DNA of 64,000 bases from NCBI GenBank assembly GCA_913060565.1, contig CAJXRU010000005.1:1-64000 (forward strand), read 5' to 3'. A program made the position numbers and the translations under genes. Below are positions 23,659 through 25,809 of the stretch, in pieces. A model generated the notes under the pieces. The model was not told the origin of the DNA. It was given only the letters and a program-made list of their open reading frames with translations, and searched no databases. Every line of letters starts with the position of its first letter. Positions within the stretch are counted from its first letter, which is position 1. The DNA is from an uncultured Gammaproteobacteria bacterium. GTDB lineage: Bacteria; Pseudomonadota; Gammaproteobacteria; Enterobacterales; Psychrobiaceae.

Positions 23659-24135
23659 TTATGTTGCCGGTGTGAAGCTCATTAATATTTCACACTCTTG
23701 TTTAATATCGGACTTTAAACGGTCTTCTTGCTGAGCGCGCTTTACATCAAAACGCATACGTTCTTTACGCTCTAACGCCTTATATCCAGCATGTGTTGGG
23801 TAATCAGCTAAAAATGAATCAAGTTCGTGTAAGGCTGGGTAGCGTGTTGGATAATTCGCGTCTTGGGTGACGTAGACTTTTTCAAGTAAACGGCAAATAC
23901 GGATCGCGCCTTCAGATAACTCACACTGCTCTTCGCCAACAGCTTTCGCAATTAAACGAATACTGTCAACAAGCTTTTGATTATGCTTAGTAATTTTTTC
24001 GTTATGGGCTGTAATAGCATCTTGCTGTTGTGCTGTTTGCACGCGCAGTTTAGCAATTAAACTACCCGCATAATAAGCAAGGCCGCCAATAATCAATAAA
24101 GCTAAAACAATTAACACAATATAAAGGGGGGTCAT
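23659..24135 (-). CDS. DUF2489 domain-containing membrane-anchored protein
   Basis: A 158-residue protein with one N-terminal transmembrane helix (about 4-28, LYIVLIVLALLIIGGLAYYAGSL), then a coiled-coil-like stretch (about 30-62). A conserved DUF2489 body follows (GEEQCELSEGAIRICRLLEKV...YPALHELDSFLADYPTHAGYKALERKERMRFD). The function is unknown. The start codon overlaps the yihI stop, and this pairing is common in marine gammaproteobacteria. A role near ribosome assembly can be guessed only from yihI. Confidence 0.85.
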   Translation of the reverse strand: MTPLYIVLIVLALLIIGGLAYYAGSLIAKLRVQTAQQQDAITAHNEKITKHNQKLVDSIRLIAKAVGEEQCELSEGAIRICRLLEKVYVTQDANYPTRYPALHELDSFLADYPTHAGYKALERKERMRFDVKRAQQEDRLKSDIKQECEILMSFTPAT

Positions 24136-24668
24136 TACGATTTAAACTCATCAAATTCAGAACTATCTAACTCTTCCCATGCTTCTTTTTTGTCTTCTTC
24201 GTTGGCTTCTGCATCATCTATTTGTGCTAGCAGTTTTTGATGCTTAGCCGTTTGATGATCGATATAAGCCTGATCTTTAGCTGAGATTTCATTGCCCTCA
24301 TCTAAGGCGTCTAATAAATTATTTAAGCGCTCATCGTTCTCAACCTGAGCAAGTTGTTGCTCTATCGATAACGTTGGTGTTGGTTTAGCCTTTTTGACCA
24401 CAACTTTAGGCTGTAAGTTCTTAGGTGCTTGACTCGGCACAAGCTCAATCGCTTTTTTACTACCAACTCTGCTGTCTAGCTCTGATGCGCTATTGCTTGA
24501 TGAACGTGTTTTTTTAACTTTAACACCATCAATATTCGCTTTCGCACCAGAAGGGCGGCCTTTGCCTTTCTTCTTAGAGTTGTCTTTGATTCTTTCCGAT
24601 TGCTTTAGCAGTGGTTTTTTTGCTGCGCCAATGGTTTTTTCAGTACGAGTCTTTTTCTTACGAGTCAT
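24135..24668 (-). CDS. yihI: Der GTPase-activating protein YihI
   Basis: A 177-residue, highly charged protein that stimulates the GTPase activity of Der (EngA) in 50S ribosome assembly. The basic N terminus (MTRKKKTRTEKTIGAAKKPLLKQSERIKDNSKKKGKGRPSGAK) and the acidic C-terminal half (QVENDERLNNLLDALDEGNEISAKDQAYIDHQTAKHQKLLAQ) are typical. It is translationally coupled to the DUF2489 gene. The same chromosomal neighbourhood (typA-glnA-ntrBC-yihI) exists in E. coli. Confidence 0.93.
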   Translation of the reverse strand: MTRKKKTRTEKTIGAAKKPLLKQSERIKDNSKKKGKGRPSGAKANIDGVKVKKTRSSSNSASELDSRVGSKKAIELVPSQAPKNLQPKVVVKKAKPTPTLSIEQQLAQVENDERLNNLLDALDEGNEISAKDQAYIDHQTAKHQKLLAQIDDAEANEEDKKEAWEELDSSEFDEFKS

Positions 24669-24763
24669 GGTGGTGTTTCATCTAAATTAATTAGCGCGTG
24701 TTATACCAGAATTGGCTGTTGATTTCAGTAAATGAGGGGAAAAAATGTGCACAAAAGCGGAAA

Positions 24764-24793
24764 TAAAAAAAACGGCAGATAAAATCTGCCGTT
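24764..24793 (-). terminator. Strong intrinsic terminator with no gene in front of it
   Basis: AACGGCAGAT (24771-24780), loop AAA, ATCTGCCGTT (24784-24793). On the minus strand it is followed by eight U (bases 24772 down to 24765 on the template side). The only sequence upstream on this strand is the non-coding hairpin region, which implies a minus-strand transcript ending here, about 100 bp before yihI. Confidence 0.9.
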
Positions 24794-25148
24794 ATTGAGT
24801 GAATACACACTACTTTTATATTTGAGCTCTCCTTCAAATATAAAAGAAAGGTTGTTTCCTAATTTCACATCCTATTTTTATTCAACCTTCCATGATTGCT
24901 TGGTGAATATAAGATTATGTATTTTATTATTATAAGCTTCGAAAAACATTTTAGTTAAAATTAACTATTTAAGTTTGACTACAAGCTAACCTAAATTTAG
25001 GTCGAACTCTTAAAGTTAAGAGTAAAAGAGACAATGTCTCGTGCCATAAAGGCTATTTGTTATTTTCCTAGGTAAACCTAGGTAGTTCAAAATCGAACTA
25101 TATAAAGTACTTAGTAAATACTGCAAAGTACTGAAGGTACAAGGTACC
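24764..25148 (-). ncRNA. Candidate structured non-coding RNA (CsrC-position hairpin array)
   Basis: About 385 bases upstream of yihI contain roughly ten inverted repeats and no plausible reading frame. Perfect stems include a 13-bp one at 24813-24846 with minus-strand loop AGGAGAGC, TAGTTAA/TTAACTA (24952-24967), ACCTAAATTTAGGT (24989-25002), ACTCTTAA/TTAAGAGT (25006-25023), GAGACA/TGTCTC (25028-25040), CCTAGGT/ACCTAGG (25067-25082), TAGTTC/GAACTA (25083-25100), AGTACTT/AAGTACT (25106-25132) and GGTAC/GTACC (25136-25148). The minus strand ends in a strong terminator. It has five A(N)GGA motifs there, four of them within 24830-24891, and none on the plus strand. E. coli csrC is also just upstream of yihI on the same strand. 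The 5' end is a guess. Confidence 0.5.
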
Positions 25149-25809
25149 AAATTTATTATTTTAAATGTTGAATCATCAACTTAGTTTAAACACTTATTAT
25201 TATGTATTTTAATTATAATTTTGTGGTCGCGTTTAACTGGGGCTTACTTTACTGGTGTGAATATTCATCACAAGTGTTTTTAGTTACTTTTTTTATTTGT
25301 GATTAAGTCAATTTTGGTTAAGTTGTTGTAATAGTTTAATTATAACAATAATTGACGTTTACGTAATGGCGTATGTCTCACGGGTTTTGTGGTGTATTTC
25401 TCTATCATTATGTGGTCTATTTCTTAATGTGGAGTATGTTTTTTTATCATTTGTTAATTTAATGTTATCGATCAATTGAGTGAGGTAGTGTCGATCGGTT
25501 TAAAAACTAAGCGAACGTGCGTTTGAATTGATAATGCCATAAACAAAGCCTTTCCACTTATAATTGGTAGAACTTTTATAGGATAAATTGCTCATTTTTT
25601 GTTGATAATTAGGCGTTTCAGAATTTTTAAACATCCAGTGCAACTTAAATTTAACAAATAGGCTAAGGCTTATTGCGTACATGCTTAATGCTTACGCAGG
25701 TTCGAGATAAGTTGATTTCCGACGATTTACTTAATATAGAAATAGAACTCTCTATGGTGGAGGTTGGTGATGTTTCGATTAACGCTGTGTTAGACTACGC
25801 GCTCTTTAA
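25149..25809. other. AT-rich intergenic region without a supported gene
   Basis: About 660 bp between the hairpin array and yjjX. The one minus-strand reading frame (25500-25682, 60 codons) has no ribosome site or recognisable protein pattern. A TATAAT hexamer on the minus strand lies near 25338-25343 but has no good -35 partner. A divergent promoter pair for the candidate RNA and yjjX is expected here, but none could be fixed by eye. Confidence 0.5.

Follow-up and report, generated by a model that had tools for sequence, protein, structure and literature searches.

CsrC (RF00084), described in E. coli and Salmonella, is encoded upstream of yihI on the same strand and consists of an array of small hairpins followed by a terminator stem-loop, with 14 GGA motifs in the 246 nt of the E. 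coli RNA. Zere et al. (2015, PMC4682653) describe the UvrY box of its gene as having weak symmetry; it reads TGTGAGACATTGCCGATA in E. coli and TGTGAGACATTGACCATT in Salmonella, and in E. coli an additional TGTAAG half-site lies 16 bp upstream of the box (PMC4682653). The locus described here lies in a stretch of 64,000 nt from a marine gammaproteobacterium, analysed as a whole and referred to as the window. It shares with csrC the same-strand placement upstream of yihI, a weakly symmetric UvrY-type box with a half-site about 23 bp away, the GTAAAGTA -10 element, the array of small hairpins and the terminator stem-loop, which in one related genome (G006) is identical. The RNA differs from CsrC in being twice as long, in carrying 3–6 GGA motifs rather than 14, and in its A/U-rich loops and (AAU)n linkers. 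The gene is very probably the csrC orthologue of the genus, and the best reading is that its RNA would no longer be a high-capacity CsrA sponge. Most of the GGA motifs with which CsrC normally captures CsrA are gone, suggesting another or a diminished role for the csrC gene in this organism. The GGA array is the hallmark by which Csr sponges are identified, and this RNA escapes the usual searches, whether by Rfam models or by GGA counting.

The original prediction placed an RNA of about ten stem-loops at 24764–25148, a 385-bp stretch thought to hold no plausible gene. The stretch indeed contains no ORF of at least 60 aa and no conserved small ORF, and a small coding gene was rejected on the latter ground. 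A known RNA family was likewise rejected, as no Rfam family matched in the window, and the 3' segment was not found in a scan of viral contigs. Inverted repeats are densely packed here, with minus-strand folding far better than that of dinucleotide shuffles (z -5.8 for the window stretch and -3.6 to -7.8 across nine species), and the strong minus-strand terminator that had been predicted is found at the end of the stretch (24763–24793; AACGGCAGATTTTATCTGCCGTT followed by T8). While the array itself stands, its 5' edge and hairpin count do not: the promoter and the closing stem P1 make the unit ~90 nt longer, to ~25238, and about 14 hairpins are present. The putative csrC-orthologous RNA, of ~474 nt with both ends predicted, accordingly spans 24765–25238 on the minus strand (as do all features given below), as delimited from its conservation in 10/10 genomes, covariation, promoter and terminator. 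Placing the 5' end as in E. coli csrC (TAAAGT, 7 nt, then A) gives a predicted start at 25238, which coincides with the first base of P1. Downstream, yihI (24135–24668; Der GTPase activator, Pfam PF04220) has its own extended -10, CTGGTATAAC (24700–24709), conserved in the alignment and located after the terminator, and the RNA therefore appears to be a unit of its own.

The strand cannot be told from folding strength alone, since the plus strand reached z -8.9. Promoter and terminator indicate the minus strand, as does the consensus energy, which was -41.2 kcal/mol compared to -30.0 kcal/mol for the plus strand; a strand test based on interior G-U versus A-C mismatches gave 4 versus 12, counts dominated by chance helices. 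The plus-strand folding, equally stable against shuffles, could be taken to mean that the inverted repeats act on that strand or as DNA, in a yjjX leader or as a repeat element. This is highly improbable, as the gene upstream changes between species while the array stays, the weaker plus-strand consensus loses P1, the array is present in a single copy in the genome, and both promoter and terminator point to the minus strand.

In each of the ten genomes of the genus examined, yihI is directly preceded by the array, one copy (G003) being cut by a contig end. Alignment identities of 52–87% separate two clades, with the window and G001, G002, G004, G007, G008 and G009 in clade A (seven species), and G005, G006 and, as placed by its 3' part, G003 in clade B. 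When 395 genomes of the order were searched with a covariance model of the 3' end, short-calibrated and hence with rough E-values, only these ten were recovered. Two additional weak matches outside the genus (L055 and L056) were rejected as ordinary terminators of other genes. The sample covers ten genomes of one genus, and an intermediate RNA in a close sister family was not seen in the genomes examined. The gene on the upstream side varies by species (yjjX, an HTH gene, a cytochrome c gene or a HupE-like gene); in G008, a divergently oriented GTPase gene (MMR_HSR1) beside a cytochrome c gene lies just upstream of the RNA, a placement resembling that of yihA, the GTP-binding protein gene upstream of E. 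coli csrC.

A dozen or more hairpins are maintained by compensatory changes. The 5' closing stem P1 (AGTTAAACGC/GTGTTTAAACT; 25183–25238) bears an A/U-rich loop and is paired in 97.5% of cells, with many G-U pairs. It is followed by P2–P10 (24988–25180), which have stems of 3–10 bp and mostly A/U-rich loops of 3–5 nt and whose arms pair at 96–100% with their own partner versus 55–80% with arms swapped between species, and by the branched hairpin P11/P12 with a subsequent AUAAUAAUAA linker (24926–24987). Towards the 3' end, the 13-bp hairpin P15 (24813–24846) displays compensatory changes between the clades. Its loop, AGGAGAGC in clade A and CATATTGAT in clade B, is invariant inside each clade and wholly different between them. 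The original prediction had proposed covariation among homologous yihI upstream regions as a check, and when the fold of one member was placed on the alignment, 48 pairs were changed on both sides compared to 29.6 in shuffles, with a covariation score of 0.256 versus 0.178 and 79% of cells paired versus 37–44% for slid versions. Similarly, stem arms paired at 96–100% with their own partners compared to 53–83% with arms swapped between species, a comparison that is illustrative since the arms were picked from folds. Stems and terminator are conserved across the genus, where homologous regions lacking them would have counted against the prediction.

The promoter (25246–25273) comprises a -35-like TTGTGA (25273–25268), a 16-bp spacer and the -10 element TAAAGT (25251–25246) within GTAAAGTA, and this TTGT...TAAAGT arrangement was conserved at a fixed distance in 8/8 species tested. 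At 142 bp upstream of the predicted 5' end, comparison with the published csrC boxes revealed a candidate UvrY box of the csrC type, CGTGAGACATACGCCATT (25365–25382), of the weakly symmetric form TGTGAGACATTG.CCATT. The canonical palindromic box TGTAAGN6CTTACA was rejected because its spacing does not fit; the csrC boxes match instead, with 12–16 of 18 positions identical. In every species read the box lies between -141 and -143, despite their differing upstream genes. In seven of nine species no shuffle, or almost none, matches as well, while in L057 and L063 the proximal box was reached by 29 and 40 of 300 shuffles, respectively. The boxes of G009 (TGTGAGACATTGGCTATT) and G007 (TGTAAGATATTGGCCATT) are very like those of csrC. 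Two degenerate copies (25388–25428) lie 23 bp and 46 bp above the proximal box, at -165 and -188, and the upstream TGTAAG half-site of E. coli csrC has about the same ~23-bp period. Taken individually, the distal boxes are weak in several species, and so is the 40-nt tandem segment as a whole, whose comparison with E. coli was significant in only a few species; the signal is that of the proximal box. Directly downstream of the box, most species of the genus have a conserved ACGTAAACGT (25355–25368), which is absent from E. coli csrC and may be the site of a second regulator.

A scan with a degenerate form of the box returned this locus as the sole exact match in the genome. Elsewhere in the order, most matches had no such RNA behind them, but the box also precedes GGA-rich RNAs with a GTAAAGTA/G -10 in three families (f6 at L130, f7 at L106 and f13 at L108), and the -10 context, GTAAAGTA or GTAAAGTG, is common to these csrC-like genes and E. 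coli csrC. The f6 RNA (L037/L130) shares with the window RNA the box type, a -10 of the GTAAAGTG form, a csrC-type terminator stem-loop (GGCGACAGAGCAATCTGTCGCC) and a location close upstream of yihI, and differs in its 16 GGA in ~382 nt and in the one gene between it and yihI. Compared to the terminator stem-loop of E. coli csrC, that of G006 is identical at 22/22 positions and those of G008 and G003 at 20/22, while the window's own has diverged. In G006 the Rfam CsrC model matches the terminator only (22 bits), and this terminator type is also found elsewhere, in many short CsrC-model matches.

The position on the same strand upstream of yihI in ten genomes and in E. coli, the csrC-type box far upstream, the -10 and start context, and the terminator make it very probable that the gene is orthologous to csrC and would be under UvrY control. 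An independent origin of a new RNA beside yihI, with a csrC-like box and terminator by coincidence, would account for RNA bodies that bear no recognisable similarity to CsrC. The same is suggested by the common terminator type and by the absence of any CsrC-model match at this locus in the window with E allowed up to 10. Such an origin is nevertheless improbable, because box, box-to--10 spacing, -10 context, terminator and neighbouring gene all agree, and because this very locus has the genome's single match to the degenerate box. The proposal of a csrC position is thereby strengthened by box, -10 and terminator, even though the Rfam CsrB and CsrC models it had recommended for checking found nothing at the window. 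Its two further suggestions divide: a diverged Csr-type sponge holds for the gene and fails for the RNA, which lacks a GGA array in a genome that keeps a separate GGA-rich CsrB, whereas a different RNA altogether is unlikely as to origin and may still apply to function.

The GGA content sets the RNA apart from its relatives. It amounts to 3–6 per RNA of 433–496 nt, no more than in shuffles, compared to 30 in 580 nt for the organism's own CsrB and 16 in 382, 13 in 344 and 30 in 550 nt for the csrC-like f6, f7 and f13 RNAs, and a bulk Csr sponge was rejected on this count. The five GGA of the original prediction are all on the minus strand, as stated, each in an ANGGA or AGGA context. Four ANGGA (GGA at 24889–91, 24870–72, 24857–59 and 24830–32) form a 3' cluster at 24830–24891, a candidate residual CsrA module. 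Across the seven species of clade A, 3–5 ANGGA fall within 66 nt near the 3' end, a density reached by 0–28 of 1000 shuffles, and this cluster may still make the RNA a working CsrA antagonist. As with McaS and other sRNAs that have only a small number of CsrA sites, a few GGA in the window RNA could titrate CsrA.

These observations raise the tentative alternative of a low-capacity sponge, in which CsrA dimers would sit on the 3' ANGGA cluster, one site being in the P15 loop, and the remainder would be a stabilising scaffold. The csrC promoter and locus agree with it, as do the cluster itself, the invariant AGGAGAG of the clade A P15 loop and the enrichment of TAGGAA (14 versus 1.6). Less easily reconciled with it, clade B has lost the cluster, retaining three dispersed GGA, yet has kept hairpins, promoter, terminator and unpaired (AAU)n linkers; moreover, three of the window's five GGA are mostly paired in the predicted ensemble, and CsrB-type RNAs are already available. 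One or two of the latter were found in 7/10 genomes, in both clades and most of them GGA-rich, at E up to 0.001 with none above the Rfam cut-off. CsrA was found in 9/10 genomes, as was a UvrY orthologue over the family cut-off.

A-rich linkers between the hairpins are conserved as well. In the nine full RNAs, ATAATAA occurs 48 times compared to 1.9 expected, ~25-fold over shuffles, and AATAAT lies mostly in unpaired linkers. The distal face of Hfq binds ARN repeats, and the genome has an hfq gene. Unpaired ARN/AAN tracts together with the U-tail of the terminator are as expected of an Hfq-bound RNA, a combination insufficient on its own; Hfq binding is proposed here from the motif, and the A-rich linkers could be mere spacers. 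An Hfq-dependent sRNA that pairs with mRNAs through the 3' segment AACCUUUCUUU or the P15 loop, the csrC promoter reflecting history only, would fit the invariance of CTTTCTTT in ten sequences as well as the (AAU)n motifs, U-tail and Hfq. We consider it unlikely, given that the P15 loop differs wholly between clades and that 474 nt of covarying hairpins far exceed what base-pairing would need. As a seed for target prediction, the 3' segment is too short and A/U-rich.

The explanation we favour, and think probable, is that this is the csrC gene of the genus, activated by UvrY, and that its RNA either retains no more than a small CsrA module or has acquired another role, perhaps one involving Hfq. 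The csrC-like control region and locus, the covariation, the scarcity of GGA and the AAUAAU enrichment are its support in the sequence; expression, UvrY control and binding by Hfq or another ligand are what it predicts. As the promoter is that of csrC, BarA-UvrY would switch on the RNA through the boxes ~140 bp upstream and the TAAAGT -10, yielding a product of 430–500 nt with about 14 short hairpins and a csrC-like terminator. In clade A the CsrA capacity would at most be the compact 3' module of 3–5 ANGGA (~two dimers), and in clade B this module would have been lost, while in both clades selection would maintain the scaffold of hairpins together with the unpaired (AAU)n linkers. The RNA might then mainly serve a ligand other than CsrA. 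Hfq is the most plausible one; it would bind by its distal face, which takes A-rich sequence, and by way of the U-tail, and UvrY would thereby gain a second output. The stronger version, a change of client in which the GGA array was swapped for (AAU)n linkers under unchanged BarA-UvrY control and the RNA titrates or loads another RNA-binding protein such as Hfq, is a conceivable outcome that we put forward with some reserve. If confirmed, it would mean that BarA-UvrY output can be rewired via the binding motif of an RNA while promoter and scaffold are kept, and the two clades of one genus would form a natural series of CsrA-site loss.

The organism's own CsrB-type RNA (L044; G000:C46, 1501–2080, minus strand), with 30 GGA in ~580 nt, is preceded by a canonical palindromic UvrY box, TGTAAGAGATCTCTCACA. 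It resembles the window RNA in being multi-hairpin and in its BarA-UvrY setting, and differs from it in box and GGA number. Its score with the Rfam CsrB model was only 26 bits, compared to a cut-off of 71. Among the other Csr-type RNAs encountered, that of f13 (L084/L108; G083:C117) has ~38 GGA in the part that was read and contains internal repeats of ~66 nt (ACGGAACGAAAGCATAAGTCATGAGGACTTATCGCAGGACGCTCAGGACC) that are almost identical to one another, so that it looks as if it had grown by tandem duplication. Finally, in family f10 (L079, L080 and L083) two CsrC-model matches with UvrY-type boxes share a strand at a distance of ~660 bp, as candidate tandem Csr RNAs.
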